Of a stretch of 57,583 nt of DNA, positions 212 to 37,600 are shown one piece after another. A program made the position numbers and the translations under genes. This DNA comes from Bacteroidia bacterium (GTDB taxonomy: Bacteria > Bacteroidota > Bacteroidia > J057 > JAIXKT01). Every line of letters begins with the position of its first letter. Positions within the stretch are counted from its first letter, which is position 1. The stretch lies in assembly GCA_026932145.1 (NCBI GenBank), contig JAIXKT010000055.1:1-57583 (forward strand), in the 5' to 3' direction. The notes under the pieces were generated by a model. The model was not told the DNA's origin. It did not search any database and was given only the letters and a program-made list of their open reading frames with translations.

Positions 212-457
212 ATGCAGTTAAATAAAAATATAGCGGTTAGTGACTCGGGGTTTATTTTTAACCCAAGCACTGGGGACTCTTTTTCTACCAATACTATTGG
301 AGGCGAGATTATTCAAATGCTGAAAGAGAATAAAGATAAGGAAGAGATTATCCAAAAACTCTTGGAGGATTATTTGGTAGATAAATCTACCTTAGAAAAA
401 GACTTACAAGATTTTATTCAGATGCTAACGGCTCATTATCTATTAAAAAATGAGTAA
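212..457 (+). CDS. PqqD-like small protein (peptide-binding/RRE fold)
   Basis: This 81-residue protein matches the general pattern of the PqqD family. It has an N-terminal segment of short beta strands with the FNPSTGDSF pattern (residues 16-24), then TIGGEIIQML and two helical segments ending in a hydrophobic tail. PqqD and related RiPP recognition elements bind a peptide and present it to a modifying enzyme; standalone PqqD-like proteins also occur beside kinases and ligases with unknown partners. It has no signal peptide, so it should be cytoplasmic. The gene overlaps the following ATP-grasp gene by eight bases, which argues for coupled translation and a shared function. No precursor peptide gene is seen next to it, so its ligand is unknown. 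The family call is from pattern recognition, not from an alignment. Confidence 0.7.
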   Translation: MQLNKNIAVSDSGFIFNPSTGDSFSTNTIGGEIIQMLKENKDKEEIIQKLLEDYLVDKSTLEKDLQDFIQMLTAHYLLKNE

Positions 458-1499
458 GCAAAAAATCACCGTAGGAGTTACTGGCTTAAATAACATTGAC
501 AGTCCTGGGCCGGGTATTCCGGTAATTCGGGCTTTAAAGGAAAGTTCACATTTTGAGGTTCGGATTATTGGGTTGAGCTATGAAACCTTAGAGCCGGGGC
601 TGTATATGCACGATTTGGTTGATAAGTCGTATTCCATACCGCTTCCGGGTACCGGAACGGCAAGTTTATTACAACGTTTGAGCTACATTCATGAAAAAGA
701 GCAGTTAGATGTTATTATTCCCAATTTTGATGCGGAGTTACACAGTTTTATTCGGTTAGCTCCGCAGCTAAAGGCTGAATTTGGAATAGCTACGTTTCTG
801 CCTACCCAAGAGCAATTTGAATCTCGGCATAAATCGGTGCTGTATGAATTTGGTGTAGCCAACAAAATTAAAGTACCCAAGTCCCGTATGGTATTTTCTC
901 CGGCAGAAATTACCGCACTTGCGTATGAATTTTCTTTTCCGATTGTCGTTAAGGGAAAGTTTTATGATGCGCATATTGCTGCAACAATGGAGCAGGCTAT
1001 TAGCTATTTCCACAAAATCAGCGCTAAGTGGGGGCTTCCTATCATTATCCAAGAATTTGTTTCCGGTAATGAAGTGAATGTTACAGCCATTGGTAATGGT
1101 ACGGGAAAATGTATCGGCGCAGTGCCTATGCGTAAATTGTATATTACTGACAAGGGAAAAGCTTGGGCAGGCATTTCCTTAGAAGACGAGCAACTTATCG
1201 AGATTACCAATCGAGTTATTGCAAACTCCTGCTGGAAAGGCGGCTGTGAGCTGGAGTTCATCAAGACACAAGCCGGTGAATATTATCTATTAGAAATGAA
1301 TCCCCGTTTTCCGGCATGGATTTATTTAGCCGTAGGCTGCGGCCAAAATCACCCGGAAGCACTCGTTAAAATGGCCTTAGAGCAAAACGTGGAACCATTT
1401 GCAAATTATGAAAGCGGAAAATTATTTATCCGATACAGTTTTGACCAAATTGTATCATTGAGTGAATTTGAGAAAATATCTACATTCGGAGAATTATAA
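450..1499 (+). CDS. ATP-grasp ligase (CarB/PylC-like)
   Basis: This 349-residue protein has the three-part layout of an ATP-grasp enzyme. An N-terminal Rossmann-like lobe begins GVTGLNN and has DVIIPNFDAE near residue 90. The central ATP-binding lobe has FPIVVKG near 168 and IIIQEFVSGNEVNVTAIG near 199. The C-terminal lobe has the metal and ATP motifs GGCELEFI and YYLLEMNPRFPAW (about residues 255-290). These enzymes form amide or similar bonds through an acyl-phosphate. The sequence is nearest in style to carbamoyl-phosphate synthase and PylC-type carboxylate-amine ligases. It overlaps the PqqD-like gene upstream and lies 29 bases before a decarboxylase-like gene. I infer that it ligates a small amine or amino acid to a carboxylate supplied within this operon; the substrate cannot be read from the sequence. 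Confidence 0.8.
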   Translation: MSKQKITVGVTGLNNIDSPGPGIPVIRALKESSHFEVRIIGLSYETLEPGLYMHDLVDKSYSIPLPGTGTASLLQRLSYIHEKEQLDVIIPNFDAELHSFIRLAPQLKAEFGIATFLPTQEQFESRHKSVLYEFGVANKIKVPKSRMVFSPAEITALAYEFSFPIVVKGKFYDAHIAATMEQAISYFHKISAKWGLPIIIQEFVSGNEVNVTAIGNGTGKCIGAVPMRKLYITDKGKAWAGISLEDEQLIEITNRVIANSCWKGGCELEFIKTQAGEYYLLEMNPRFPAWIYLAVGCGQNHPEALVKMALEQNVEPFANYESGKLFIRYSFDQIVSLSEFEKISTFGEL

Positions 1500-1528
1500 A
1501 ATTATTTTTTCTAACAAAGACAACTATT

Positions 1529-2890
1529 ATGAGCAAGAAATCCTATGAACGTCCGGTCATTCAGAAGCTAAACGCCGGTATTATGAACAAGTTTGGCACT
1601 AAAACGGAGTTTTTTCCGGTAACTCATATTGACGGAGTTGCGGTAAACAAACTATTAACCGATTATGGTTCACCGCTTTTTGTGATTTCGGAAAGACAAA
1701 TTCGCAGAAATTACCAGCAAGCGAATCGAGCTTTTAAAACCCGCTACCCCAAAGTACAATTTGCTTGGAGCTATAAAACCAATTACCTGAATGCTGTCTG
1801 CAAAACATTTCATCAAGAAGGTTCTTGGGCAGAAGTTGTTTCTATTTTTGAATACCGGAAAGCCCTTGCAAATGGTGTTCCGGGAAATAAAATTATATTC
1901 AATGGCCCTGATAAAACAGAGGCTGACCTAAAATTTGCTGCAGAAAATGATTCGCTCATCCACATTGACCATTACGATGAATTGTATCAACTTGTAGAGA
2001 TTTTGCAAACAGAGGATCTTCATGCTCGGGTAGCTATCCGGGTAAATATGGATACCGGAATTTACCCCATGTGGGATAGGTTTGGCTTTAACTACGAAAA
2101 TGGGCAGGCGTGGAACGCAATTACCAAAATCATGTCCCAGCCGGGAATGGAATTGGTGGGCTTGCATTGCCATATCGGAACATATATGCTGAGTGCGCAA
2201 GCATACGCTACCGCTGCCTATAAATTAGCTGACTTAGCACACCATATCAAACTTAAATACGGAAAAGTTATCCAATACTTAGATTTAGGAGGAGGATTTG
2301 CTTCCGAAAACACCCTAAAAGGTTCTTACCTGCAAGGTGCTGATGTTGTTCCCTCTATTGACGACTACGCAGAAGCTATCACAACAGCAATATTGAATGC
2401 CGGATTTAAGCAGGAAGACCTACCAACCTTATTTTTAGAAACTGGAAGGGCATTAATTGATGATGCCGCTTGGCTGCTGGGAACCGTTATTGCGACCAAA
2501 CGTTTAAGCGACGGCAGGAGAGCAACTATCTTGGACTTCGGGGTAAATCTGCTCTTTACTTCTTTCTGGTATGACCATAAGATTTCTGTATCCAAAGAAT
2601 TTTCACACCACACTGAAGACATGATTCTTTACGGACCTTTGTGTATGAACATAGATTGTGTGCGGGAAAACATTAACCTTCCGTTACTGAACAAGGGAGA
2701 CCACGTTGTTGTGCACAAAGTAGGTGCTTACAATATGACCCAGTGGATGCAATTCATCCAAATGCGCCCCAAAATCGTGCTGATTGACAGAGAAGGAAAA
2801 GTACACATCATCAGGGAAAATGAATCCTTAGAAACAATGCTGCGATATGAACAAACTCCTGACCATTTACAGGATATTTCATTAGCTTAA
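1529..2890 (+). CDS. Fold-type III PLP decarboxylase-like protein (LysA family)
   Basis: The 453-residue protein follows the diaminopimelate/ornithine decarboxylase plan. The likely PLP lysine is K83 in FAWSYKTNYLNA, matching the usual YAxKAN motif. HCHIGTY, YLDLGGGFA (phosphate-binding glycines), LETGRALID and GPLCMNIDCV follow, the last holding the Cys and Asp expected in the C-terminal active-site motif. HKVGAYNMTQW near the end matches the GAY motif. It would decarboxylate an amino acid or act on a related D- or L-centre. It is somewhat longer than typical LysA because of an N-terminal extension of about 25 residues. Its position after the ATP-grasp gene suggests it makes the amine that is ligated, or processes the ligated product. 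It is unlikely to be the housekeeping LysA, because no other lysine pathway genes are adjacent. Confidence 0.75.
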   Translation: MSKKSYERPVIQKLNAGIMNKFGTKTEFFPVTHIDGVAVNKLLTDYGSPLFVISERQIRRNYQQANRAFKTRYPKVQFAWSYKTNYLNAVCKTFHQEGSWAEVVSIFEYRKALANGVPGNKIIFNGPDKTEADLKFAAENDSLIHIDHYDELYQLVEILQTEDLHARVAIRVNMDTGIYPMWDRFGFNYENGQAWNAITKIMSQPGMELVGLHCHIGTYMLSAQAYATAAYKLADLAHHIKLKYGKVIQYLDLGGGFASENTLKGSYLQGADVVPSIDDYAEAITTAILNAGFKQEDLPTLFLETGRALIDDAAWLLGTVIATKRLSDGRRATILDFGVNLLFTSFWYDHKISVSKEFSHHTEDMILYGPLCMNIDCVRENINLPLLNKGDHVVVHKVGAYNMTQWMQFIQMRPKIVLIDREGKVHIIRENESLETMLRYEQTPDHLQDISLA

Positions 2891-2976
2891 TCATAAAACC
2901 AGAATCTATACATTTATCTGATTATCAATAAATAACATATTGAAAAAAATAACCTGTTTACTAAATTGAGATATTT

Positions 2977-5157
2977 ATGCTGAAGCAGATTTCTTTATGG
3001 CTTGAATCAACCCTAAATAGTTACGGCCAGATATTTTTTTCATTAAATCCGGTTTTTTCTGGAATAATTTTATTGGTAACTTTATTTGTACCAACACAAG
3101 GTTTAGCCGGTTTATCAGGTGTTTTGTTAGCCAATTTTTTGGCACAGCGCTTAGGTTTCAACCAAACAGAAATTCGGGAAGGTATTTTTGGTTTCAATGC
3201 CTTGTTGTTAGGCTTAGCCTTAGCGCATCAGTTTGACTTTACACTCACATTCTGCTTCTTCTTTATCATATCAATCGTTATTTTGCTGCTGATGACGGCT
3301 GTGATAAAAGGTTTTTTGCAGGTTTATCATTTGCCTTTTGTGAGTTTACCTTTTTTGGCGACCTATTGGCTCGTTTCTCTCTCGGCGGGCAATATGTCGT
3401 CTTTGGTATGGAGCGACCAAGCCGTTTATGCAATTAATGAACATTCAAGGATGCAGGAATATGCTTGGTATCAGTTAGTTCACAGCTTAGATGCTAATTC
3501 TTTACCGTTATTTGTAGCTGTTTTTTTGCGGACGTTATCGTCCGTATTTTTTGTAGATTCTATTTTGGGAGGCTTATTGATAGCTTTGGGGCTATTGTAT
3601 CACTCAAGGATTGCGTTTTCGTTAGCGGTAATAGGCTTCTCAACGGCAATCGTTTGTTATCAATTATTAGGTGTTCCGTTATTAGATTTTATTTATGGTT
3701 TAAGCGGCTCCAATTTTATTTTTTGGGGAATAGCCGTAGGCTGTTTTTATCTTGTGCCAAATATTGGGAGTTATTTAGCGGTGATTATTCTAACACCGGT
3801 TTTAATGATGCTGGTAATTAGCTCCGGAAAAGTGCTGGAAGTTTTTCAACTAAAAGCCTTTACAGTAGCCTTTTCTGCACTCACTATCCTATTTTTGTTT
3901 GCATTATTACACCGTTGGTTTCATCAGTTTTTGCATTTGGTTACAGTTCAATATTACCATGCAGAGAAAACAATCTATAAATATCTTTCTTCATTACAGC
4001 GTCTAAAAAATGTTGGTTATGCTAAAATTTCCTTACCGTTTTTTGGAGAATGGTCTGTTAGTCAAGGATATAATGGTTCTCTTACCCACTTAGGTGATTG
4101 GAGCTACGCCTTAGATTTTATGATTCAAGATGATGAACAAAAGAGTTATTACAGAGCGGGAGTTAATCGGGAAGACTATTATTGCTACAACAAACCGGTT
4201 TTAGCTCCTTTGGATGGCTATGTTTATGACATTCACAATTACGTTGAAGAGAATGACATTGCTGGAGTGAATACAGAACAAAATTGGGGTAATACTATTA
4301 TTATCAATCACTTGAATGGGTTATATTCACAGATCAGCCACCTTAAAAAAGATTCATTTTTGGTTTCTATTGGGGATTATGTTACTCGGGGCACAATCAT
4401 AGCGGCTTGTGGAAATAGCGGGCGTTCACCGGAACCACATATCCATTTTCAGCTACAAACAATTCCATTGGTTGGTGCAAAAACACTCCCTTATCCGGTG
4501 GCTTATTTTGTCGAAAAAGATAAAAATGACCAAGAAACATTACACACTTTTGAAGTACCAAAGCTACATACAACCATCAGTAATGTTCTACCGGCTGAAC
4601 TACTCACGGCAAGTTTTGATTTCAAACCCGGTAAAAAAATTGCTTTTTTGAAAGAAAACACTCAAGAACTCACCGTTTGGGAGGTGATGACAGACGCTTT
4701 CAACCGAAGTTACTTATTCTGCACCGAAACCAAATCCGTAGCCTATTTCATAAATGATGCAACAATGTTTTATTTTACTGACTTTGAGGGAGATAGAAAC
4801 TCATTGTTATTTCAATTTTACTTAGCGGCTTTTCGCGTATTGCTGGGTTGTTATCCCAAAGTTACCCTCACAGACCAAATTCCCTTAATTCATTTCAGCA
4901 GCATTTGGGTTCAGTGGATACAAGATTTCTTAGCTCCGTTTTACCTGTTCGTTAAGGCTGCTTATGAAAGCCGAATCTCGACAGTAGATAATCAACATTC
5001 ACCGGCTAACTTAGCGATTTTAAGCCACATAAATACCCGATTTTGGGGTAAAAAAACAAATTCAGTTTCCTACAAAATCTCTTTGTACGAAAAAAGAATC
5101 CAGCACTTTTCTATTTTAAAAAAACATCAAACAATCAATTATTTATGCGTTGCTTGA
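2977..5157 (+). CDS. Urea transporter family membrane protein fused to M23 metallopeptidase
   Basis: This 726-residue protein joins two unrelated parts. Residues 1 to about 320 are very hydrophobic, with roughly ten membrane segments and urea-transporter-like phrases (FFSLNPVFSGIILLV, REGIFGFNALLLGLALA). From about residue 355 a soluble M23 (LytM-type) peptidase follows. It has H371 and D380 in THLGDWSYALDF, a glycine-rich beta core (SIGDYVTRGTIIAACGNSG) and H488/H490 in PEPHIHF, so the zinc ligands look intact. A further 200 or so residues after the peptidase have no recognised domain. M23 peptidases cut peptide cross-links in murein or glycyl peptides. No urease genes are nearby, so ordinary urea uptake is doubtful; the channel may carry another small amide or amine. 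The stop overlaps the next gene by 13 bases. Confidence 0.8.
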   Translation: MLKQISLWLESTLNSYGQIFFSLNPVFSGIILLVTLFVPTQGLAGLSGVLLANFLAQRLGFNQTEIREGIFGFNALLLGLALAHQFDFTLTFCFFFIISIVILLLMTAVIKGFLQVYHLPFVSLPFLATYWLVSLSAGNMSSLVWSDQAVYAINEHSRMQEYAWYQLVHSLDANSLPLFVAVFLRTLSSVFFVDSILGGLLIALGLLYHSRIAFSLAVIGFSTAIVCYQLLGVPLLDFIYGLSGSNFIFWGIAVGCFYLVPNIGSYLAVIILTPVLMMLVISSGKVLEVFQLKAFTVAFSALTILFLFALLHRWFHQFLHLVTVQYYHAEKTIYKYLSSLQRLKNVGYAKISLPFFGEWSVSQGYNGSLTHLGDWSYALDFMIQDDEQKSYYRAGVNREDYYCYNKPVLAPLDGYVYDIHNYVEENDIAGVNTEQNWGNTIIINHLNGLYSQISHLKKDSFLVSIGDYVTRGTIIAACGNSGRSPEPHIHFQLQTIPLVGAKTLPYPVAYFVEKDKNDQETLHTFEVPKLHTTISNVLPAELLTASFDFKPGKKIAFLKENTQELTVWEVMTDAFNRSYLFCTETKSVAYFINDATMFYFTDFEGDRNSLLFQFYLAAFRVLLGCYPKVTLTDQIPLIHFSSIWVQWIQDFLAPFYLFVKAAYESRISTVDNQHSPANLAILSHINTRFWGKKTNSVSYKISLYEKRIQHFSILKKHQTINYLCVA

Positions 5158-6488
5158 TTGTTGTAGCAAAAGTAGGGCTTTTATTAGCCAGTTTTGCAGC
5201 TATCGTTTTTAATGGATTTAGTCAAAACCTCTTAGATGTTGATTATCAAACGTACAATCTTTTTGTGCAAGGAAAGTATGACTCCTTAAAAATCATTGGA
5301 AATGAATACATTAAAAGAGGTGATGATTTTTATTTTTTGAGAATGCGTTTGGGAATGATTTATTATCAGGAAAAGAACTATGAAGTTGCTCAACAGCATT
5401 TTGAACGAGCATACCAATTTAACGATGCTGATTCAGTTTTACAGGAATACTTGTATTTTACATATCTCTTTACGAATCAGCCGGAATCGGCAAATATTTT
5501 GCTCTGTAAGTCATCAATAAGTCTGCAACAAAAGCTAAACTATCGTCCTTCGGGTATCCGGCAGATTACCATCGGCGGCGGCTATCTGACTACCAATAAT
5601 GACCACAACTTTGCAGCAAAAGATATTTTGCAGCAAAATGCCTATGCAGAAGGATATTTTTCCGGTAAAGCTATTTTCGGACGCTTAGAAATACAAAGCG
5701 TTCATAATAAAGGACTTAGAATGTTTCATGCAATCCAGTGTTTTAGTACTACAACTCTTGGGCGCACAATTGCGCCAACGTTTCATTATGCCCAAACGGG
5801 TAATAACTTAAATATTCAGTATAACGGAATGTTATCTTATGCTTTTAATCGTGGTTGGAAAACTTATTTGGGGGCGGGCTTTTATAGACAGACATATTCT
5901 TTGTATCAATTTGAAACGACGAATCCTGTATCTCCGGATACTTTTCCCAAAACAAAAGTTTTTTATCAAGGTTTTTGGTCAGATTGTTTTGCCGGAGTAT
6001 TTGGCGTGAGCAAACGCCTTCCGTACTGCGCTCCTTTATTGGAAATTGCAGTTGCAAATTTTAACCAGAAACTCTTTTTGCAGGGAGAAACCTCTATTAC
6101 TTATTTTCCACTTGGAAATACCCATTTTTACGGCACAACTACCTTCACATTAATCAAGCAAGATTCTTTAAATCAGTTTGTTATATCTCAATCTATCGGT
6201 GGAAAAATAACCAACAAGCTCTGGTATGAAATCAATGGCAGCTACGGAAACCATCAAAACTATCTGGCTGCGATGGGGTTTCTAACCTATAATACGCTTG
6301 GAATAGTTCGCAGCACCATCGGGTTTGATTTACGATATTATCTCAATCGGTTTATAATCAACTTATTGTATAGATTTCAATTACGGGAAGGGAACTACTT
6401 TCAAGTTACCCGAGAAAATATTATTCAACGACCAAATTTTAATTTCAATAACCACATTTTTTCAATTTCAATAACATGGAAACTGTAA
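5145..6488 (+). CDS. Predicted outer-membrane beta-barrel protein with N-terminal TPR segment
   Basis: The 447-residue product starts with a signal peptide (MRCLIVVAKVGLLLASFAAIVFNGFSQ). A TPR-like helical part of about 90 residues follows (FLRMRLGMIYYQEKNYEVAQQHFERAY). From about residue 140 to the end come alternating amphipathic strands rich in Tyr, Phe and Gly, finishing with HIFSISITWKL, the aromatic last strand typical of outer-membrane barrels. The layout resembles YaiO-type outer-membrane proteins, but no diagnostic motif was found. The start overlaps the end of the transporter-peptidase gene and the stop overlaps the next gene, so the three are translationally coupled. A role as the outer-membrane exit or assembly point of this operon's product is inference. 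Confidence 0.6.
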   Translation: MRCLIVVAKVGLLLASFAAIVFNGFSQNLLDVDYQTYNLFVQGKYDSLKIIGNEYIKRGDDFYFLRMRLGMIYYQEKNYEVAQQHFERAYQFNDADSVLQEYLYFTYLFTNQPESANILLCKSSISLQQKLNYRPSGIRQITIGGGYLTTNNDHNFAAKDILQQNAYAEGYFSGKAIFGRLEIQSVHNKGLRMFHAIQCFSTTTLGRTIAPTFHYAQTGNNLNIQYNGMLSYAFNRGWKTYLGAGFYRQTYSLYQFETTNPVSPDTFPKTKVFYQGFWSDCFAGVFGVSKRLPYCAPLLEIAVANFNQKLFLQGETSITYFPLGNTHFYGTTTFTLIKQDSLNQFVISQSIGGKITNKLWYEINGSYGNHQNYLAAMGFLTYNTLGIVRSTIGFDLRYYLNRFIINLLYRFQLREGNYFQVTRENIIQRPNFNFNNHIFSISITWKL

Positions 6489-7093
6489 GAAAAATTTCTG
6501 TATTCTGTCTGTTAGCAATGCCTTTAGTTGTTTTTGGACAAGACCAAGCTATTCTACATCAGGCATTTAGCAAAAGTTATACTCAAGAATCTGCACATAA
6601 TTACAAAGGAGCTATTGCCGAACTTTCTGCACACTACACCGAATCGTCTTACGAACTCAACTTACGTCTTGCTTGGCTTAGCTATTTAGCCGGATTATTC
6701 AATGAATCCGTTACATATTACCAAAAAGCGGCAAAACTGATGCCTGCGGCAACAGAACCTCTTTGGGGAATCATCAACCCTTATACCAAAACCGAAAATT
6801 ACAATGATATTGAGCAAATTTACTTGTCTATTTTGAAGTTAGATCCCAAAAATGCTAAAGCTAATTATTCTTTGGGAATTTTGTATTACTACCGCAAAGA
6901 CTTTATCAATGCAAAAAAATATTTAGATGTATCCCTAAATCTATATCCATTTGACTATGACTCTATGCTGATGAGTGCTTGGACAAACTATTTTTTAGGG
7001 AAATTAAACGAGGCTAAAATTCTATTTAACAAGGTGTTGCTTTCAAACCCCAATGATAAATCTGCTCTGGATGGATTGGGGCTAATCAAATAA
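6476..7093 (+). CDS. Secreted/periplasmic TPR-repeat protein
   Basis: This is a 205-residue protein with a signal peptide (METVRKISVFCLLAMPLVVFGQ) and about four TPR units. The units are seen as repeated Y-x-x-A and A-x-x-x-x-x-x-A patterns, for example LGILYYYRKDFINAKKYLD and SAWTNYFLGKLNEAKILFN. TPR domains mediate protein contacts, so it is likely a periplasmic adaptor for the barrel protein encoded just upstream, with which it overlaps by 13 bases. It is the last gene of the operon; a long hairpin follows 43 bases later. No enzymatic motif is seen. Confidence 0.7.
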   Translation: METVRKISVFCLLAMPLVVFGQDQAILHQAFSKSYTQESAHNYKGAIAELSAHYTESSYELNLRLAWLSYLAGLFNESVTYYQKAAKLMPAATEPLWGIINPYTKTENYNDIEQIYLSILKLDPKNAKANYSLGILYYYRKDFINAKKYLDVSLNLYPFDYDSMLMSAWTNYFLGKLNEAKILFNKVLLSNPNDKSALDGLGLIK

Positions 7094-7210: not shown

Positions 7211-7837
7211 TCAGGCTGCATTTTTAGTGTCTAATAAAGTGCGCAGTTTTTTTAAGGCATAACGCAGCCGTCCTAAGGTAGTATTTAGGTTGGTGCCTGT
7301 TTGCTCTGCTATTTCACGGAAAGAGAGTTCTTCAAAAAAGCGCAGGTGAACTACCTCCCGCTGAGATTTTGGAAGCTGGTTTAATAAGCAGGAAATAGTT
7401 TCTGCTAATTCTTGATACATAAGTTGTTCCTCCGGCATACTATCGCTATGAATAGCCTTTTGAGCTACAAGCAAGTCTTCGTTACCCCACAGATGTTGTT
7501 TACTCTTTTGGTTTCGATACTTATCTATAGCCAGATTTCGGATAATACGGCTTGCCCACGATAAAAATCTACCGTCATCAGCATACTTTCCAGAAATAAC
7601 CTGTTGATAGATTTTTAGCATACCCTCTTGCAGCAAATCATCTACAGATGCTGCATCCAGTAAAATTTTTTTAGCTACACTGCGCAAGTATGTGTGATGG
7701 CGGTGCATCAACATATCAAAAGCACGGCATTCCCCTTGTTGCAAAATATGAACTAATTCAATATCTGAAAGATTTGCCCAACTTAACTTTGTTTTCATTG
7801 CTTTACGATTTAAAGGTTTTCGTAAAGGTTCTTCCAT
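7211..7837 (-). CDS. ECF-type RNA polymerase sigma factor
   Basis: The 208-residue protein has the sigma-70 region 2 signature ASVDDLLQEGMLKIYQQV and RFLSWASRIIRNLAIDKYR. It then has region 4 (LPKSQREVVHLRFFEELSFREIAEQTGTNLNTTLGRLRYALKKLR), a helix-turn-helix that would contact the -35 region. It lacks regions 1 and 3, as ECF factors do. A second possible start at residue 14 (MKTKLSWANLSD) would give a more usual N terminus, so the first 13 residues are uncertain. No anti-sigma factor gene lies beside it, unlike many Bacteroidota FecI-type factors, so its control is not evident. A TTTACGT/ACGTAAA inverted repeat sits immediately upstream at 7841-7858. Confidence 0.85.
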   Translation of the reverse strand: MEEPLRKPLNRKAMKTKLSWANLSDIELVHILQQGECRAFDMLMHRHHTYLRSVAKKILLDAASVDDLLQEGMLKIYQQVISGKYADDGRFLSWASRIIRNLAIDKYRNQKSKQHLWGNEDLLVAQKAIHSDSMPEEQLMYQELAETISCLLNQLPKSQREVVHLRFFEELSFREIAEQTGTNLNTTLGRLRYALKKLRTLLDTKNAA

Positions 7838-7840
7838 ATT

Positions 7841-7858
7841 TTTACGTTTATACGTAAA
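7841..7858. promoter_or_regulatory. Inverted repeat upstream of the sigma factor gene
   Basis: TTTACGT (7841-7847) and ACGTAAA (7852-7858) form a perfect seven-base inverted repeat with a four-base spacer, starting four bases before the sigma factor ATG on the minus strand. This position suits an operator or a 5' leader hairpin. No binding protein can be named. Confidence 0.3.
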
Positions 7859-8156
7859 TCTGAAACATAAATTTTACACTATTAAGTAAAAGTGCTCTTA
7901 TAGGTAGCGGTCTAATGATGAGTGTAAATATTTAACGAATAAAGTAATGAATTATTTTATGGATAGAATTTTTTTAGCAAGAAATGATGGCTCAAATGTA
8001 GTGAATTATTTGTTTTACAAAGAACTTTTAGTGCTAAAAAGTAGTTTTTGGTAAATACGTAACGCTCCGGTTAGTGGCTATTTTGATACCCAAAACGCCC
8101 ACCAAGTTTATTGGACAATTTAGTTAGAAAATATTTAGGCAGCGTTAAAAGTTTTG

Positions 8157-8164
8157 TATTTTTG
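8157..8164 (+). promoter_or_regulatory. -7 promoter element (TATTTTTG)
   Basis: TATTTTTG matches the Bacteroidota -7 consensus TAnnTTTG and lies 21 bases before an in-frame ATG at 8186. This makes that ATG a better start than the upstream TTG at 8111, which would precede the promoter. Confidence 0.5.
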
Positions 8165-8185
8165 TCATTTTCGGATAGTTACCTT

Positions 8186-8821
8186 ATGTTATTGGGTCTA
8201 ATACATATATTAGCATTAAATATAGTGTTGTTATTTGCACCGGGTTTGTATGTTATTTCAATATATTCACGGCGCAGACTCAAACATGTTACCTTAGAAT
8301 GGTGGCCTTCCGGCTTAGTACTATTTTCCACCGCACTTTTGGTGCTAAATATTTTATTACTGATAACGACCGGATTGTTAGCTACATCCGTTATGGATAA
8401 TTTTCCAAGCATAATCGTTAATTCGCTTCCTGCTGAAAATATCAGGCTATTAGCATTAGATAGCTTTTTCTTACTTATATCTGGCGTTTTAGTATATATT
8501 TCCGTTCAAAATTTGTTTACTCAATACGTTACCCACGAGGGAATTGTGATTTCACAAATCAAATTAAGCCATAAATTAGTAACTTACAAGCTATTACGCT
8601 GGGAAGATATTTCTGATTATTACCTAAGGCGGGATTACCCTGTTACCTATTTCAATTTTTTAGTAAAAAACAGCCAGCAAAATGGTTACGACCGTATTCA
8701 GGTTCAAGTTCCGTTTAGCCATCTGCAACATTTTCAGGGTATCTTGGATATGAATTTGAATTTACAAGAAGAAATACGTGAACGAAAGCGTATGCAAAAC
8801 AGAAAAATTTCAAAAAATTAA
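8186..8821 (+). CDS. Membrane protein with C-terminal PH-like domain, function unknown
   Basis: I do not recognise a named family. From the ATG at 8186 the protein is about 211 residues. It has three or four hydrophobic helices in the first 120 residues (LLGLIHILALNIVLLFAPGLY, LVLFSTALLVLNILLLITTG and LLALDSFFLLISGVLVYIS). The C-terminal half is soluble and beta-rich (HEGIVISQIKLSHKLVTYKLLRWEDISDYYLRR), reading like a bacterial PH or YcxB-type domain anchored in the membrane. A TTG start at 8111 is also open and adds 25 residues, but the TAnnTTTG element at 8157 argues for the shorter form. The next gene begins one base after its stop, so the two are probably co-transcribed. Confidence 0.55.
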   Translation: MLLGLIHILALNIVLLFAPGLYVISIYSRRRLKHVTLEWWPSGLVLFSTALLVLNILLLITTGLLATSVMDNFPSIIVNSLPAENIRLLALDSFFLLISGVLVYISVQNLFTQYVTHEGIVISQIKLSHKLVTYKLLRWEDISDYYLRRDYPVTYFNFLVKNSQQNGYDRIQVQVPFSHLQHFQGILDMNLNLQEEIRERKRMQNRKISKN

Positions 8822-8822
8822 T

Positions 8823-9674
8823 ATGAAAATTCAAACCGTTGGTGTTGCGGGAGCTGGAATTATGGGGCAAGGTATCACAACAACCATTTTGTTATCAGGA
8901 TATAACGTTATTTTGTATGATATTAATAACGAAACATTGGAGTCTGGGAAACAGTTAATTACCGGATACATCAACAAAAGTCAGCAGTTGGGAAAGATTT
9001 CGGCAGAATTAGCCCAGAACGCCTTGTCTAATTTGATAACTACCACCACACTCACAGAACTTGTGGGAGAGTTAATCATAGAAGCTGCACCGGAATCATT
9101 AGCCATAAAACAAGAAATTTTCAAAACCGTAGAATCCGTTAATAGCACCGAAACAATATTTGCGACAAACACTTCTTCGTTATCTGTTTCTCAGATAGGC
9201 AGTTGCCTTATCAACCAAAAGCGTTTTTTAGGGTTACACTTTTTCAACCCGGCACCTTTGATGAAGTTAGTGGAAATAGTTCGCAGCTTAGCCACTACAC
9301 CAGAAACGGTTCAAATAGTGCGCAATTTTACCGAATCTTTACAAAAACAAACAGTGATAGCAGCAGATACCCCCGGCTTTATTGTAAACCGAATAGCCCG
9401 CTTTTATTACTTAGAAAGCCTGCGTATTCTAGAAGAACAAGTTGCTAATGTGGAAACTATTGACAAACTATTTGAAGGAACTAACTTTCGGATGGGGCCT
9501 TTTCGGCTGATGGACTTGATTGGCATTGATACGAACCATGAAGTTACAAAGTCAATCTACCGCGGTTTTTTTGATGAACCTCGTTTTAGACCCAGCAGGA
9601 TTCAGCAAACATTGGTGAACGCCGGAAAGTTTGGGAAAAAAACACGCTCAGGATTCTACGAATATCCCGACTAA
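8823..9674 (+). CDS. 3-hydroxyacyl-CoA dehydrogenase (3-hydroxybutyryl-CoA type)
   Basis: The 283-residue enzyme opens with an NAD-binding Rossmann motif (VGVAGAGIMGQGIT). It has FATNTSSLSVSQIG, the catalytic region LGLHFFNPAPLMKLVEIV with the conserved His and Asn-Pro, DTPGFIVNRIARFYYLES, and a C-terminal helical domain with GPFRLMDLIGIDTNHEV and FGKKTRSGFYEYP. These are the hallmarks of the HbdA/PaaH group, which oxidises the 3-hydroxyl of an acyl-CoA with NAD+. The start at 8823 is preferred over an upstream in-frame start inside the previous gene, because it follows that gene's stop and begins the domain directly. The hemJ gene begins at the base after its stop. Whether the role is fatty acid, butyrate or phenylacetate metabolism cannot be decided; a crotonase-fold gene lies 3 kb downstream. 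Confidence 0.88.
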   Translation: MKIQTVGVAGAGIMGQGITTTILLSGYNVILYDINNETLESGKQLITGYINKSQQLGKISAELAQNALSNLITTTTLTELVGELIIEAAPESLAIKQEIFKTVESVNSTETIFATNTSSLSVSQIGSCLINQKRFLGLHFFNPAPLMKLVEIVRSLATTPETVQIVRNFTESLQKQTVIAADTPGFIVNRIARFYYLESLRILEEQVANVETIDKLFEGTNFRMGPFRLMDLIGIDTNHEVTKSIYRGFFDEPRFRPSRIQQTLVNAGKFGKKTRSGFYEYPD

Positions 9675-10193
9675 ATGCTTTACATCAAAGCACTACACGT
9701 GATTTTTGTCGTAACTTGGTTTAGTGGCTTATTTTATGTAGTACGCCTATTCATCTACAACCGAGAAGCACAAGATAAGCCCCCAAAAGAAGCATTAATC
9801 TTACGAAATCAGTACCAAATTATGATTAACCGCTTATGGTTGGGCATCACTTGGCCTTCAGCGATACTAACATTCATTTTAGGAAGTACCTTATTATCAA
9901 CCTATGAGAATATTCCTACTTGGCTTTGGTTGAAAATATGCCTGATAGTTGGGTTATTTACCTATCATGGAACTCTTCATTATATCTATAAACAACAAAA
10001 AGAAGGTCATTTTTCTTTAACCTCAAAACAACTTAGAATCTGGAATGAAGTAGCCACTGTTTTCTTAGTCGGAATCGTAATGTTGGTAATCGTTCGGGAT
10101 TCAATAAGCCTACTTTGGGGCTTATTGGGGATTTTTTTATTCGCTATGGTATTATTAACAAGCATTCAGGTCTATCAACGCCTCCGAAAGTAA
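9675..10193 (+). CDS. hemJ: Protoporphyrinogen IX oxidase HemJ-like membrane protein
   Basis: This 172-residue integral membrane protein has four or five hydrophobic segments. It carries the HemJ pattern: MLYIKALHVIFVVTWFSGLFYVVRLFIY with the conserved His8 and Arg, GITWPSAILTFILG, WLWLKICLIVGLFTYHG with a conserved Lys and His, and RIWNEVATVFLVGIVMLVIVR with the N-E-V-x-T signature. HemJ converts protoporphyrinogen IX to protoporphyrin IX in haem synthesis in bacteria that lack HemG and HemY. The ATG follows directly on the stop of the acyl-CoA dehydrogenase gene, implying an operon. Some databases label this family CopD-like, but the N-terminal His and NEV motif favour HemJ. Confidence 0.85.
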   Translation: MLYIKALHVIFVVTWFSGLFYVVRLFIYNREAQDKPPKEALILRNQYQIMINRLWLGITWPSAILTFILGSTLLSTYENIPTWLWLKICLIVGLFTYHGTLHYIYKQQKEGHFSLTSKQLRIWNEVATVFLVGIVMLVIVRDSISLLWGLLGIFLFAMVLLTSIQVYQRLRK

Positions 10194-28592: not shown

Positions 28593-31500
28593 TTATGGAC
28601 TAACCAACGTACTTAGGCCGGCTATCCATTGCTTTTGTTCCGGAGTATAGTATAAATAGCTTCGGCTGGCTGGACCTTCATAACTGCCCGGCACGTCTGC
28701 TTTCAGGTCTAAGTTGACTTCTCTAACTTGATTAGGAGCCATTTGGCGGCAATACAGTACTAATTCACGGCCACGTATTTCATAAAAATCAACAGTTCCT
28801 TTTTCCTGAATTTCTTTTAGCTGCCATGGCTGTGCGGATAAACCACCCGGTATCCCGATAATCGCTAATGTCATGGGTTGGCCTTTGGTAACAGTATTGG
28901 TGATGGTAACCTTAACCCGCATTGTTTCGCCGACTTTTACCGTTTTGGCAGCAGCCTGCACATCTAATTTTATTGGGCATTCCGATTGCTGTTTAGGCTG
29001 AATAGAAGCATATTTGATAGAAATTTCATAGGGAAGTGCTGACTCTGTATTGGTGAATTTCACCTGAATCTTGTGGTTTCCGGTGATAGCGTTTTCCCAA
29101 CCTTTCAGTTCTATAGGGCCTCGCTCTCCCGCCTTGTAGGAATAGGAGGCGGCTTTCTTGCTATCTACATAAACTTCGACAGTACCGCTTGAAGCTGTCT
29201 TTTTAGAATACTGTGAATACAAGGTGAGTGCTTTTAGGGCTAAAATGGTAGATTGTGTTGAACCAAACATCCCACCATTGGAACGGGTGCCAATAATGTA
29301 TTTTATACTTTTGTCTAATAATAACGCATCCGGTTGGTCTTTTTTAAATAATCCCAGTACAACCAAAGCTGTTGTTTCTATGGTTAAGCTCTCGCCACCA
29401 GACCGAGTAATTGAATGAGAAGTGCCCGTCCAAGATCCACCTATACTTTGTTTTGGTTTGATTTTTTCTAATATTTTTGAATAACGAGCATCCTTCGTTT
29501 GGCCAAGGATATTCAGCATTAAAGCTAATTGGTAGGGATCATCGCTTTTTTCAGCTACGGAATAGCAAGATTCTATTTCGTTTTTCAGTTTATCTGCGAA
29601 TCCGGCTTCGGTCAAGGCATAGACGATATAAATGTTGGTAATTTCTGGGGAGGCTCCGCCAAAGGAATCAAGGGCTTTGGGGTCTCTTAGAAATCCGCCT
29701 TTATTGTCTTTTCTGGTTAGCAGCCAATTGGCTGTTCTATCTACCATTTTTTTATCCAAGCTGGCATAAACGGGTTCCATGTCTTTAAATTCGAGGAGTC
29801 CGTATGCTGTCAAGGCTTCGTGGGGGGGTGAACTGCCAAACCATTCGTAACCATTTTGTTTGGTTTCAAAACCCACTAAGCGCTTATAGCCGCGGTCTAA
29901 CAAATCTCTGGCTTTGGTCATTACCGGTACATCAGTTACGTTATTTTCTTTCATATAGCGCAACGCAATTATGTTTGGATAATTACTGGAAGATGTTTGC
30001 TCAAAACAGCCATAAGGTTCTCTTAAAATAGCATCTACGCCGGCCATCATGCTACTTAATGCTGTTGGAAAAACGGATAAGGTTGCCTGCATCGTTCCGG
30101 GTACTACTTGCTGAACACTTAAAGAAAATGAAGATTCTTTATCTGAGCCGGAAAAGCTGATTTGCTGAGGAAAGCCTTTGGGATGAACATATACATTTTG
30201 TGAAAAGGCATCTTCAAGGCCGTTTGCTTGTAGTTTTAACTCCATAAAGTCTTTTCCGGCAATATTTTGAACTACAAAAGCAGCATAGATAGTTTGGGCA
30301 GAATTTGCCGGCACATTCACGTTGTTCGGTAAAGGAGATTTAAGCGAAAATGCCTTGGGTACTACAAAAGAAAGATTTCCGGTTACCGGATTTTTGGTAG
30401 TGTTTTTGATGGTTATCGGGAGGTTGATTTCGTCTCCCATAGAAACCTCTACCGGAATTTTAACACTCATTGAAAGCGGTAATATGTTTGAAAATACGGT
30501 TTCTGTATGAGCTGGAAGCCCATTTTGGCTAAAGCCTTCGATAGTTGCCCGAAAAGAGGTTATCGCATCTGAGGTTGGAAAAGATATGGTAGTAATGCCT
30601 CTTCGGTCTGTAGTAATATCGCCTTTCCAGAATATCGTATTTCTGAAGTCGTTTCTAACTTCCGGTGCAGGTTTTCCTTCATAAATAGGTGTTGGGAATA
30701 CTCGGGCACGGTAATAAGCAATTTGCTGAGGATTCGGCTTAACTGTTTCTTCCATCATCTCTTCATCGGCAAATTCATTTCGATCCTCCATAGGTACGTC
30801 CCTATTTATCTCTTTGTCTTTTTCCACTTTGGGTTTAGCAATTTTTGGGGGGGCAGCAGGATCTCCTTTATTCGGCATTAAATCAGGCTTATTTTCAGCT
30901 TTAGCATTTTTTTTCGGTAGATCTTTTTTATTTATTCCTTCTTCAACAGCTCCATCTATCATCGGTTTGTCATCATTGTCTTGAGCACCTCCGGCAAAAC
31001 CGTCATTAATTTCAGCCCTTTTTCGTCCGCCGGCACCGCCTCTATTCGGGGCTGCTGCCATCGGCATTTCTGCTGGACGGGGAGAATATAGAAATAAAGC
31101 TAAGTTTGATGTGTAGTAAGGGATGTTCTGCTGATAAGATGAATATTTTTGGGCATCTTTTGAATTAATGGAAAAGGTATGATTTTCTGTCAAATCAATA
31201 TTTCGGAAAGTAAACTTTCCGTCTTTACCGGTAACGGCTTTGTTGGGGGTTTTTAATTGTTCGATGGTTACGTCAGCAAGGGGTTTGTTGGTATAAGCAT
31301 CAAACACAGTACCGGATATTTCAGCTAATTCTCGGTTATAGGAAATGGTGGGTGGGTTTTCTTGTATTGCTTTCCAAGTGAATCCGCGCCAGCCGCGGGT
31401 ACGCATTAGCAAGTCAAGTGCTTGGGCTGCCTTTGGCTCTTTAGGGTCAAAGTAAAAATTAGGCTCTTCTATTTTTCCAGCTAATTCACTTTCTAACAGC

Positions 31501-32990
31501 ATTTTAGACAATAAAGAACCGGAACGGTCATCTGCAAAAGACAGTAGATTATCATCCACAACGGCTAAGGATAGGTTTGCCGGAACGGGAACGCCTTGAT
31601 AATCTAAGGTTTGGATGGTCAGTTTAACGGTTTCTCTGGGTTGATAATCAGGTTTATCCGGCTGCAGTTTTACCTGAAGTTGTTTGTGGGAATTAACGAA
31701 TACTAAGCGTTCGCATCTTTCGATACCGCTACCGTCAAATAGCGTAATCACGGTTATGCCAATTGGCAATTGATCTGTTGGAATGCTGATGTTTCGGCTG
31801 TTAGAAACGGGCACTGCATCGGAATAAACTATCTTTTCATGCTGACGCATTACGATTCGTAAAGTTTCCGGGCGGGGAGAGGTGATTTTGACAGAAACTT
31901 CGGTACGTTCAGGAGTAGCAGTCAGGCTGTATCCGGCAGGCAAAATAGCCGGCAGTGAATATTTCTCGGTTATACCAACCGGCTTTGTAATCTTAACAGA
32001 ATATATTTCTTGGGAGTTTGGGGTAAACGAAAAATCGCCCATTCCAAAATGAAAACTTGTAAAAGAAGCTACTACATTACCGGCTTTGTCTAATAGCTGG
32101 CCTTCTATGTCGGCAGGTTTTCCATGCTGGTTTTGAGCAAAAAACGCAACACGCGCCGGAACATTATGAATTAAATCTCCCCCTTCCGGAAAAAAACTTA
32201 ATTTAATATCATTCAGCACAATGGGTATCGAACGAGAAATAGATTCTGTTTGCCCTTCATGGGAAAACAGTAAATTCACTAAACCATCGGAAGATGTGAG
32301 TTCTTTGGGTAATTTAAAAATCACCAATCCTTTGCCTTCATTATCTAATGAAGTGCGGAAGCGTTGGTATTCTTTGCCGCTTAATGATACTACGCTTTGA
32401 AAGGCAGCATTTTCTAATGGTTTATTGTCTAATTTTTTTACTTCGATTTTCAGACCTACTTCATCACCGGGTCCATAAGCTTTTTTCTCAAAATCTATTT
32501 TCATTTTGAGGCGGGGTAGCACAACATCCTGAACGGTAATTTCTTTTTCAAAGAACGGCATTTCGGGCGTGTTTTTTTGCCAGTTGGTGTAGCTGCGTAT
32601 TTTGTATATCCCTCCCGGCCAATCTGGGCTTAGCTGAAAATCACCGGATGCTGTTCCGTCTTTTAGCACTAAACGGCGGGTTACTTCCACAGCCCCTTTG
32701 GGGTTTATTAGCTCCACATAGGCAATTTCGCTTTCCTCAGAGATTTTCATATCGCGTGTGTTTCGCACATAAACCTGAAACCAGATGTCTTCGCCCAACT
32801 CAAATTGAGGGGAATTTATATGTACATATACTTTTTCGGTAGGTAACTGTTTGAAAAAAGTAGAAAACTTCTCTTTTAGTTTAGTTAGAAAATCATCATC
32901 TCCATTAGGCGATGCCGCTAACTTTGGAAACCACCAAAGCCCTAAGGCTAACACAATCGGTAAAATAACCAGATACGATTGATTTTTCAT
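28593..32990 (-). CDS. Large alpha-2-macroglobulin family protein with thioester motif
   Basis: The 1465-residue protein has an N-terminal hydrophobic export segment (SYLVILPIVLALGLWWFPKL) and MG2-type macroglobulin domains (EKVYVHINSPQFELGEDIWFQVYV, FEKKAYGPGDEVGLKIEV). A carboxypeptidase-regulatory-like insert follows near residue 555 (SGTVFDAYTNKPLADVTIEQL). A charged low-complexity stretch spans roughly residues 640-760. The A2M core has GCFEQTSSSNYP, the thioester CxEQ motif with C995 and Q998, followed by an alpha-helical thioester domain (NGYEWFGSSPPHEALTAYGLLEF). Bacterial A2Ms trap proteases in the periplasm. The usual partner penicillin-binding protein 1C is not adjacent. A lipobox was not seen, so anchoring is by the N-terminal helix, or the protein is soluble. 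Confidence 0.88.
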   Translation of the reverse strand: MKNQSYLVILPIVLALGLWWFPKLAASPNGDDDFLTKLKEKFSTFFKQLPTEKVYVHINSPQFELGEDIWFQVYVRNTRDMKISEESEIAYVELINPKGAVEVTRRLVLKDGTASGDFQLSPDWPGGIYKIRSYTNWQKNTPEMPFFEKEITVQDVVLPRLKMKIDFEKKAYGPGDEVGLKIEVKKLDNKPLENAAFQSVVSLSGKEYQRFRTSLDNEGKGLVIFKLPKELTSSDGLVNLLFSHEGQTESISRSIPIVLNDIKLSFFPEGGDLIHNVPARVAFFAQNQHGKPADIEGQLLDKAGNVVASFTSFHFGMGDFSFTPNSQEIYSVKITKPVGITEKYSLPAILPAGYSLTATPERTEVSVKITSPRPETLRIVMRQHEKIVYSDAVPVSNSRNISIPTDQLPIGITVITLFDGSGIERCERLVFVNSHKQLQVKLQPDKPDYQPRETVKLTIQTLDYQGVPVPANLSLAVVDDNLLSFADDRSGSLLSKMLLESELAGKIEEPNFYFDPKEPKAAQALDLLMRTRGWRGFTWKAIQENPPTISYNRELAEISGTVFDAYTNKPLADVTIEQLKTPNKAVTGKDGKFTFRNIDLTENHTFSINSKDAQKYSSYQQNIPYYTSNLALFLYSPRPAEMPMAAAPNRGGAGGRKRAEINDGFAGGAQDNDDKPMIDGAVEEGINKKDLPKKNAKAENKPDLMPNKGDPAAPPKIAKPKVEKDKEINRDVPMEDRNEFADEEMMEETVKPNPQQIAYYRARVFPTPIYEGKPAPEVRNDFRNTIFWKGDITTDRRGITTISFPTSDAITSFRATIEGFSQNGLPAHTETVFSNILPLSMSVKIPVEVSMGDEINLPITIKNTTKNPVTGNLSFVVPKAFSLKSPLPNNVNVPANSAQTIYAAFVVQNIAGKDFMELKLQANGLEDAFSQNVYVHPKGFPQQISFSGSDKESSFSLSVQQVVPGTMQATLSVFPTALSSMMAGVDAILREPYGCFEQTSSSNYPNIIALRYMKENNVTDVPVMTKARDLLDRGYKRLVGFETKQNGYEWFGSSPPHEALTAYGLLEFKDMEPVYASLDKKMVDRTANWLLTRKDNKGGFLRDPKALDSFGGASPEITNIYIVYALTEAGFADKLKNEIESCYSVAEKSDDPYQLALMLNILGQTKDARYSKILEKIKPKQSIGGSWTGTSHSITRSGGESLTIETTALVVLGLFKKDQPDALLLDKSIKYIIGTRSNGGMFGSTQSTILALKALTLYSQYSKKTASSGTVEVYVDSKKAASYSYKAGERGPIELKGWENAITGNHKIQVKFTNTESALPYEISIKYASIQPKQQSECPIKLDVQAAAKTVKVGETMRVKVTITNTVTKGQPMTLAIIGIPGGLSAQPWQLKEIQEKGTVDFYEIRGRELVLYCRQMAPNQVREVNLDLKADVPGSYEGPASRSYLYYTPEQKQWIAGLSTLVSP

Positions 32991-34620: not shown

Positions 34621-37600
34621 ATGAGTAAAATACGCTTACTGCTGTTTAGTATTGGAATATTGATTTTCTCAAATTTTAGCACAACTGCCCAACTTGGAAA
34701 ACCGTACCAACAATACTATTCACCCAAAGAATACAAGGCACACCAGTTAGTTTGGTGGATTACCCAAGACGCACGCGGAGTTGTTTATGCAGCTAATAAT
34801 GACGGCGTTTTAAGCTATGACGGCCAGCATTGGGAACTAATTTCTACCCCGAACCCAGTTCGTTCTTTATCAATAGACAAAAACAACCGAATCTTCGTAG
34901 GCTGTAAAGGAGATTTTGGAATGTTAAAAATAGACTCCACCGGAAGTTTATTGTACCAATCTATCCGAAAATTATTACCTAAACAAGACCAAGTCTTGGT
35001 GAAAGACTTTGATAAGGTTTACTGTACAGACGGTGCTATATGGTTTATTTCAGAGTTTATGTTAGTTAAGGCAACGGAATCCGGGGGGCTATTTAACCTA
35101 ACGACTTGGAAATTTGAACAAGACGGCCTAACCGGAGCAGGGTTGATGGATGGGAAATTATACATACATCAACGCGGAGTAGGACTTTGTGAGGCGACTT
35201 CTAATGGGCTAAAACCAGCCCATGGTGGCGATTTCTTTAAAGACAAAGAAATAACAGCCATTAAAACCGTAGGAAACGAAAAAATAATCGCCACTGCTAC
35301 CGCAGGTCTCTTTAAATTCACGGCAAATCAAGCAACTGCGATTACCACCCCAATTGATAATATTTTAAAAAGTGCTATCATTTATGAAGTTGCACCAATG
35401 CAAGGTAACCAATTTGCCGTAGCCACAATGTTAGGCGGAGTTTATGTGGTTTCATTATCCGGTCAGGTATTACAAACATTTACCAAAGAAACAGGTTTCC
35501 CAGATAACGATATTTACTATGTTTATACAGATAAACAAGGTGGTTTATGGATAGCATATTCTAAAGGATTAGCCAGAATTGGGCTGAATATCCCGATTAC
35601 CCAACTAACCGGTATAGAAGGTAAGGTAGCCTCTATGGTTTCCTTTAATAACTTAATTTATGCAGCTACCAGTCAAGGGATTTTTGAGCAGAACGGCGGT
35701 ATTTTTCGCCGAATTTCCGGAATCAACACAGAATGTCGCTCGCTACGGATATTTAACGGAAAACTTTATGCAGCCAGCAATAAAGGCTTGATTGAAATCA
35801 ACAATGGAGCTATCCGGTTCGTGCTTCCCAATGAACTATGCCTATCAATAGGAAGTTCAGCCCAAAATGGAATGTTATTAGCAAGCCATTTCAAAGGAAT
35901 TTGGGTCATAGACCCTTCTACCGGTATCAAAACAGATATTCCCAAAGTTACCGAAGAATCATTTTCGTTCTGCGAAACCCCCGCAGGAGATATTTGGGTT
36001 GGAACAAGCTATCAAGGTGCTATCTTGCTAAAACCTAACGGAAAAAACTTTTCAGCCCAAAAATTTGGGCAAAATGACGGCTTGCCCGAAGGAAAAGTAG
36101 AAATAAAACTCATTAATAAAGAAGTTATCTTTAAAACAGAAAACGGATTTTATGAATACAACGGCGGTAAGTTCGTCCCCCTAAATACGTTAAACAAAAT
36201 AGCTTTTTCTAAAGTAGCTGACCTTGTTCAAGGCTCAAACACAGATGTATGGACGGTTCAAGAATCCGGAGTATTCTCTATTGACGGGAATCTAAAAGCT
36301 GACCCAAAAATCAACCCTATTTCACCGGCAAATATTCTACAAGAAAAACCAACTGTTTTTTATATTGATGACAAAAATATTCAATGGATAGCCATTAACG
36401 ACCAAATATTCCGTTTGGATAATTCTCGTATTAATGTCTCAAATGCGGTACTCTTACCCGTAATCACCAGAGTTACTACGGCATCCGGTATAGCTATCTT
36501 TAACGGCTACTATAAAACCGAAGACGAAAAAGCAAGCTATACTCAATCTCCAAAATTCATTCCTGAATTACTGTTTTCTCAAAATAGTTTGATGTTTGAA
36601 TACGGAATACCTTCCTTTGAAAACGAAAAAGGCACTCAATTTCAACTCTTTTTAGAAGGTAATGATAACGGTTGGTCAGCATGGAGCAAGGATTCCAAAA
36701 TTACCTACACCAATTTAAGTTCTGGTGATTATCTATTACGGATTCGTTCCAAAAACGCTTATGGAGCTATTAGTCAGGAGATTACATATTATTTTAAGAT
36801 TTCTCCTCCTTGGTATTTAACTTGGTGGGCATATATCTGCTACTTTTTACTGCTTTCACTCATTGTTTATATAGTTGTTCGAGTAAACAGCCAGCGATTA
36901 GTATCTGCAAACTTGAAGTTGGAGCAAACAGTAAAAGAACGTACCCGCGAAATTGCTAAACAAAAAGAAGAAATTGAAAAACAAAAAGTTGAAGTTGAAA
37001 AAAGCAGAGATTTATTAGAGAAAAAAAATCAAACTATTCAAGAGGCTTATACTCAGCTACAAAACACACAAGCGCAACTCATTCAGTCAGAAAAAATGGC
37101 TTCATTAGGGCAGTTAATCGCCGGTGTAGCCCACGAAATCAATACTCCAATCGGTGCTATCAATGCTTCTGCCGGAAATATTGATAAATCATTGCCGGTG
37201 ATTTTACAAAAACTGCCGTTTTTGGTTCGAAGTATGGATTCATCCAAAGAACAGCTGTTTTTTCAATTAATAGAACGAACCATGGGCTTTTCCGGCTCAC
37301 TAACCAGCCGGGAAGAAAGACAATATAAAAAATCAGTTACAGAATATTTAGAAAATAATCAAGTTGAAAACGCCGCTAATTTAGCCGCCCAACTTGCCAA
37401 AATCGGCTTGATAGACAACTTAGACCCATTTTTAATCCTACTGAAAGACCCCAATTCTACTGAACTTATTGATACTGCTACCGTTATCGGAAAACTACGC
37501 CTAAACCTCGACAACATAAAGTTAGCCATTGCCAAAACCCAAAAAATAGTATTTGCCCTCAAAAGCTACTCTCATCGCCAATCTGACGATGTATTTGTTC

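Follow-up and report, generated by a model that had tools for sequence, protein, structure and literature searches.

The stretch of DNA analysed here, referred to as the window, comprises positions 1 to 57,583 (57,583 nucleotides) of contig JAIXKT010000055.1 from a Bacteroidia bacterium, and its first part carries an operon of six open reading frames (ORFs), all on the + strand, designated genes A to F. Gene A (212..457) encodes a discrete 81-residue protein of the PqqD-like or lasso-type RRE (recognition element of ribosomally synthesized and post-translationally modified peptides, RiPPs), gene B (450..1499) a 349-residue ATP-grasp ligase, and gene C (1529..2890) a 453-residue pyridoxal phosphate (PLP) decarboxylase of the alanine-racemase fold. 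Gene D (2977..5157) encodes a 726-residue fusion of a urea transporter (UT)-fold channel with M23 and C-terminal domains, and is followed by genes for an exported protein with one TPR that is a probable outer-membrane beta-barrel (E, 5145..6488) and for an exported TPR protein of 205 residues (F, 6476..7093). The ORFs overlap by 8 nt at A/B and by 13 nt at both D/E and E/F. Window base 1 is also the start of the contig, and sequence upstream of the operon was read in relatives only. The six-gene layout, coordinates, and strand proposed in an initial annotation of this DNA hold, with Pfam and NCBIfam in agreement for A to D and with TPRs found in E and F; its view that the first three genes look like a modification pathway also fits the RRE, ATP-grasp, and decarboxylase assignments. 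Literature searches on the six-gene set returned nothing relevant and no named pathway, in line with the same annotation.

The gene set was surveyed at 80 loci around relatives of C in other genomes and at 33 loci from a sample of the phylum Bacteroidota, which were annotated with profiles built for this work. Genes A to D were found in the same order and on the same strand in all 103 loci containing them, with a median A/B gap of -4 bases, and all six genes lay within contig reach in 78 of these. Across the 395 genomes of the phylum sample, B, C, and D each occurred in 34, and these genomes are the same for all three; A was detected in 35, comprising the same 34 and one with only a weak match (G427). 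About 9% of the genomes in the sample and 27 of the 171 genera carry the set, and two genomes in which C is isolated still hold A, B, and D on other contigs. Only genes A to F recur beside the RRE gene in most loci. The proposal of a conserved functional unit of six genes is therefore upheld by the order of A to D and by their presence in the same 34 genomes, which contradict rare co-occurrence. That the operon is a chance neighbourhood of unrelated genes is scarcely credible: a few genomes in which ABC and DEF are separable could be cited for it, but it would have to accommodate an order kept in every locus with A to D, an identical profile across the sample, and co-occurrence even when the genes are scattered.

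Gene A matches PF05402 (PqqD) at 49.7 bits against a cut-off of 23.4 (4.6e-13). The best match of the A profile in the PDB was the lasso RRE TbiB1 (5v1u/5v1v, 9.7e-14), with TfuB1 at 1.5e-8, both far above PqqD itself. Lasso RREs bind the motif [Y/W]xxPx[L/V/I/A/F/Y] (PMC13381572). PDB chain 9x8z_B could be identified as LppB, which belongs to the linear polyphosphorylated peptides, because its sequence agrees with the contact residues given in the paper once the numbering is shifted by a constant 18, which allowed the leader-binding residues to be placed on A. LppB Asn33, which holds the kinked backbone in place at the motif proline, and LppB Asp70, which hydrogen-bonds the motif tyrosine (PMC13381572), align with Asn27 of A (codon 290..292, +), which does not vary among the 53 aligned homologues, and with Asp64 (codon 401..403, +), which is Asp in 50 of the 53. 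Leader binding is lost or weakened when the residues equivalent to A N27 and D64 are mutated (PMC13381572). The 13 positions of A aligned with the LppB leader pocket are conserved above random (17 of 10,000 random draws were as low), and most of the hydrophobic pocket is retained. Two carrier roles for A were considered and rejected, that of a LysW- or Pup-like C-terminal-tag carrier, as the C-terminus is variable in length and residues, and that of a phosphopantetheine carrier through a 'GDS' sequence, as this site lies on the PqqD hairpin and is replaced by GES, GLT, GTS, or GQT in other homologues. Nothing points to an amino-acid carrier role of the PqqD-like protein, a possibility raised in the initial annotation.

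A sequence of the kind bound by lasso RREs is found in the operon itself, at the N-terminus of decarboxylase C. Residues 1-23 of C (MSKKSYERPVIQKLNAGIMNKFG; 1529..1597, +) form a leader-like tail in which Y6-x-x-P9-x-I11 (1544-1561, +) matches the lasso-RRE motif [Y/W]xxPx[LVIAFY], and the tail consensus among homologues of C is K-x-Y-E-R-P-x-I. The motif was found in all 131 C homologues examined (126 with Tyr and 5 with Phe, such that 126 of 131 have the strict [Y/W] form), compared with 2.7% of the other long ORFs in the same loci, and the LysA paralogues examined from the same genomes are without a tail extension. In an AlphaFold2 (AF2) model of C with an overall predicted local distance difference test score (pLDDT) of 89.8, residues 1-4 and 7-26 fall below 50 although many of them are near-invariant; a segment that is predicted to be unstructured and is yet conserved is as expected for a docking tail. 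The tail tyrosine and A Asp64 also vary together. A Tyr tail is paired with Asp64 in 100 loci and a Phe tail with Tyr or His at that position in 5, with no mixed loci, a covariation that counts as one joint change and is suggestive only. On these sequence grounds, the most likely partner of the lasso-type RRE A appears to be the N-terminal tail of C, such that the missing leader would sit on the enzyme. To our knowledge, no RRE that docks an enzyme through a leader-like tail has been described.

The absence of a precursor peptide remarked on in the initial annotation extends to the relatives, as the 4,885 small ORFs of 104 neighbourhoods, the space to which the search applied, yielded 89 scattered motif matches and no recurrent family. 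Neither a lasso cyclase nor a leader cysteine peptidase was found among the window neighbours of the RRE gene that were checked or among the genes that recur beside it in most loci. The discrete lasso RREs (TbiB1, TfuB1/FusB1) and LppB share with A the fold, sequence similarity, and the YxxP-binding Asn and Asp, and the partner in those systems, like the presumed partner here, carries YxxPx[I/L/V] near an N-terminus. Here, however, the motif is found on an enzyme of ~450 residues rather than on a short precursor, and the cluster has neither a leader peptidase nor a macrolactam cyclase or kinase. Discrete RREs normally indicate RiPP clusters (PMC7470986) and ATP-grasp enzymes are known in such clusters (PMC12710340), and an unusual but orthodox RiPP pathway could be envisaged in which A binds a distally encoded precursor that B and C modify, with the YERPxI tail of C mimicking a leader for regulation or by descent. 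This is considered quite unlikely. No small ORF is conserved in the neighbourhoods, genomes in which A to D are scattered still hold all four with no peptide gene found alongside, and the identity between tail and RRE motif in all C proteins would become a coincidence.

The enzymes encoded by B and C were next considered with respect to their likely chemistry. B matches the ATP-grasp family PF15632 at 38.4 bits (cut-off 29.1), and its metal/ATP motif E-x-N-P-R is intact, with E282, N284, P285, and R286 at least 97% conserved over 107 rows. C contains the N- and C-terminal domains of the Orn/DAP/Arg decarboxylases (PF02784/PF00278; 119.8 and 49.8 bits), and its best PDB match is the N-citrylornithine decarboxylase FigC/FslC (7kh2, 1.9e-60). 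The catalytic set of K83 (PLP lysine), H213 (stacking His), G254-256 (glycine loop), R307 (phosphate), and C372 is invariant in 64 sequences. In the substrate pocket, Thr344 is found where diaminopimelate decarboxylase has Arg, and the acidic residue that follows the catalytic Cys is replaced by Met (Met373), a feature shared with FigC; Trp347 (invariant), Tyr348, and Trp406 are further pocket residues. The pocket no longer has the residues that accept diaminopimelate, lysine, ornithine, or arginine in free form, and for this reason a panel of free amino acids would be the wrong first assay. The predicted substrate is instead an amino acid in conjugated form whose far end is uncharged.

A house-keeping role for C as diaminopimelate decarboxylase, which would make the operon one of lysine and cell-wall metabolism, is very improbable. 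C does match the lysA model TIGR01048, and the window genome is without a second typical LysA, but the score of 224.3 bits is below the cut-off of 297.9, and the LysA motifs CESGD/CETD and RPxxY are replaced in C by CMNID (C372-D376) and TSFWY. Genomes with C also hold a true LysA that has both motifs and no tail. As a separate observation, the window genome (G000) shows no ordinary LysA beside C and only a weak match elsewhere, as do G004, G062, and G213 similarly; lysine auxotrophy or an assembly gap is possible.

The resemblance of C to FigC/FslC and its group (SbnH, AcsE, MccE, and BtrK) comprises the catalytic set, the Met after the catalytic Cys, and a Thr and a Tyr in the specificity helix. 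C nevertheless scores 233.9 against the FslC/FigC model NF041039 (cut-off 500), and it is without citrate recognition because the citrate-binding FigC residues H357 and R387 correspond to Ile375 and Gln405, both invariant in C. It further differs in its conserved N-terminal tail and in having an ATP-grasp partner, rather than an NRPS-independent siderophore (NIS) synthetase. In the butirosin pathway, the ligase is BtrJ. As suggested for the present locus, an amino acid is there ligated with the aid of a small partner protein (BtrI) and the conjugate is then decarboxylated by a PLP enzyme (BtrK) (PMC7857480), whereas A has an RRE fold and not the acyl-carrier fold, and GDS is not conserved in all A homologues. 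FigC has been grouped with SbnH, AcsE, MccE, and BtrK, all of which act after ligation (PMC7857480), and because an ATP-grasp ligase adjoins C, ligation followed by decarboxylation would be the simplest reading of C by analogy with this group.

Gene D encodes, as a single ORF, both a UT domain (PF03253, 156.7 bits, cut-off 25) and a Peptidase_M23 domain (55.2 bits, cut-off 28.7), and its AF2 model has a pLDDT of 94.6. The channel (residues 1-341; 2977..3999, +) was aligned by VIA-align to human UT-A and UT-B and to dvUT with Z of 33-34 over ~311 residues, so that it shares the full UT fold with the urea transporters. Gln18, Phe21, Phe192, and the hydroxyls at 123 and 296, which we take to belong to the urea site, are mostly kept in the pore. 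D departs from the urea transporters in its fusion to M23 and a further domain and at the position of dvUT Glu187, where Ala, Ser, or Gly predominate in the D family; urea should thus not be assumed to be its cargo. The M23 domain (~residues 345-526; 4009..4554, +), recognized by fold match and motif, gave Z of about 13-14 against DipM, EnvC, and LytM, and its zinc ligands H371, D380, and H490 and catalytic H455 and H488, assigned by motif, are invariant in 76 sequences. It therefore has the fold and all zinc and catalytic residues of M23/LytM peptidases, although with a longer H-x8-D spacing and, by prediction, a location on the cytoplasmic face of the channel. The C-terminal, mostly-beta domain (~residues 527-726; 4555..5154, +) carries no Pfam name; it is conserved with pLDDT of ~90 or more, and the fold search says little about it.

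The location of the M23 domain was approached through the topology of the channel. In UT-B, both termini are inside. UT proteins have ten helices with the glycosylated loop outside (PMC10541013), and the loops of D have a net positive charge on the putative inside and a net negative charge on the outside, with the stretch before M23 strongly positive. In L117, D is naturally split into a UT gene and an M23 gene with a 4-base overlap (7744-9998), and the M23 half is without a signal peptide. Because of the UT topology, the charge bias, and this split homologue, the M23 domain of D is probably cytoplasmic and not periplasmic. The initial annotation had the last three genes span inner membrane, periplasm, and outer membrane; this stands for the channel and the two exported proteins but not for the M23 domain. 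At 12880-13080 of L060, a chromosome of a metagenome-assembled genome (MAG), the reading frame of D seems to be shifted within the M23 portion, perhaps through a sequencing error; the frameshifted D of L060/L021 was set aside as a likely assembly error.

E shows one weak TPR (TPR_2, 9.9e-5), and the TPRs of F are recognized by Pfam (TPR_2, 6.4e-11). Profile searches with E and its relatives gave no match to barrel families. The description of E as an outer-membrane barrel accordingly lacks a family match but retains a basis in its leader-like N-terminus and aromatic-rich C-terminus, because of which a beta-barrel remains probable. E and F come after D. Their order is reversed in a distant clade, where the TPR gene precedes an adjoining gene for a barrel-like counterpart of E with ~280 residues. 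A different secreted protein of ~280 residues, with an NPFNPST-type C-terminal sorting tail, is found directly upstream of A in distant-clade loci L124, L127, L130, L131, L133-L136, and L138, and in L144 a protein of ~660 residues is encoded between A and B.

Taken together, the operon is best read as a small-molecule pathway that uses a RiPP recognition device, to which we assign a probability of roughly 55%: A docks C through its tail, B ligates, C decarboxylates the conjugate, and D and E serve transport. In this scheme, A would bind the flexible tail of C in place of a precursor peptide and, with its gene overlapping that of B, would hold B and C together. B, judged by its family, may form an amide between an amino acid and a partner, and C would then decarboxylate the amino-acid part of the conjugate, as in FigC/FslC, SbnH, MccE, and BtrK, which its family and pocket likewise suggest. 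A small neutral product, or a fragment freed by the M23 domain of D, could cross the inner membrane through the D channel and pass the outer membrane through E, with F as a putative periplasmic adaptor, whether in export or in import.

Several observations weigh against this interpretation. The five loci with Phe and non-Asp residues form one clade on the B tree and hence represent a single event, not several. The position of LppB V63 is acidic in A, and conservation of the A pocket by itself also fits an RRE whose peptide comes from an unlinked gene at another site in the genome. D no longer has the canonical urea-site glutamate, which makes the channel cargo a guess. Finally, L145 (G061:C68) carries a D-F-E unit with no B match and no close C, in which D is 55% identical to that of the window, and because this genome has D-F-E alone, the channel module can function apart from A-B-C biosynthesis. 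In another genome, ABC and DEF are located apart. With genomes of these two kinds in existence, the operon is seen to consist of two modules, ABC and DEF, which are nearly always co-inherited.

The conserved tail could alternatively be itself the substrate, making C its own precursor or carrier. A would then present the tail to B for modification at Lys21 or within G17-x-M-N-K21-F-G23, and C would decarboxylate the group attached to its own tail. The product or the tail would be released by the M23 domain of D, a small product then leaving through the urea-type channel. Conservation does continue past the RRE motif, with G17, K21, and G23 each conserved in 63 of 64 sequences, in a segment that the AF2 model leaves unstructured; BtrK is an example of this class of enzyme acting on an amino acid bound to a protein (PMC7857480), and the M23 site is intact and predicted to face the cytoplasm. 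However, the G17-G23 segment may simply touch B or C, and a urea-type pore of 2-3 Å is too narrow for a peptide, and self-modification of this kind is regarded as unlikely. If true, it would represent a new kind of peptide-carrier biosynthesis.

For the docking of C by A, as preferred here, the parts are each known and it is their use that is new. A discrete RRE is read as a sign of a peptide natural product, whereas the one encoded here seems to act on an enzyme. If this is true, the role of RREs is wider, some RRE genes without a precursor are explained, and a simple two-protein docking pair is obtained, with Y6, P9, and K21 of C and N27 and D64 of A as the residues singled out. The locus as a whole points to a small-molecule pathway with a dedicated channel-peptidase fusion.

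The neighbours of the operon in the window that were checked comprise a sigma factor, an unannotated ORF, a 3-hydroxyacyl-CoA dehydrogenase, and other unrelated genes, and a PADLOC screen for anti-phage defence gave no match. Elsewhere in the window, an alpha-2-macroglobulin family protein of 1465 residues with a TED domain is encoded at 28593-32990 (-), and a regulator-propeller protein of 1145 residues with Y_Y_Y and histidine-kinase ATPase domains at 34621-38058 (+).

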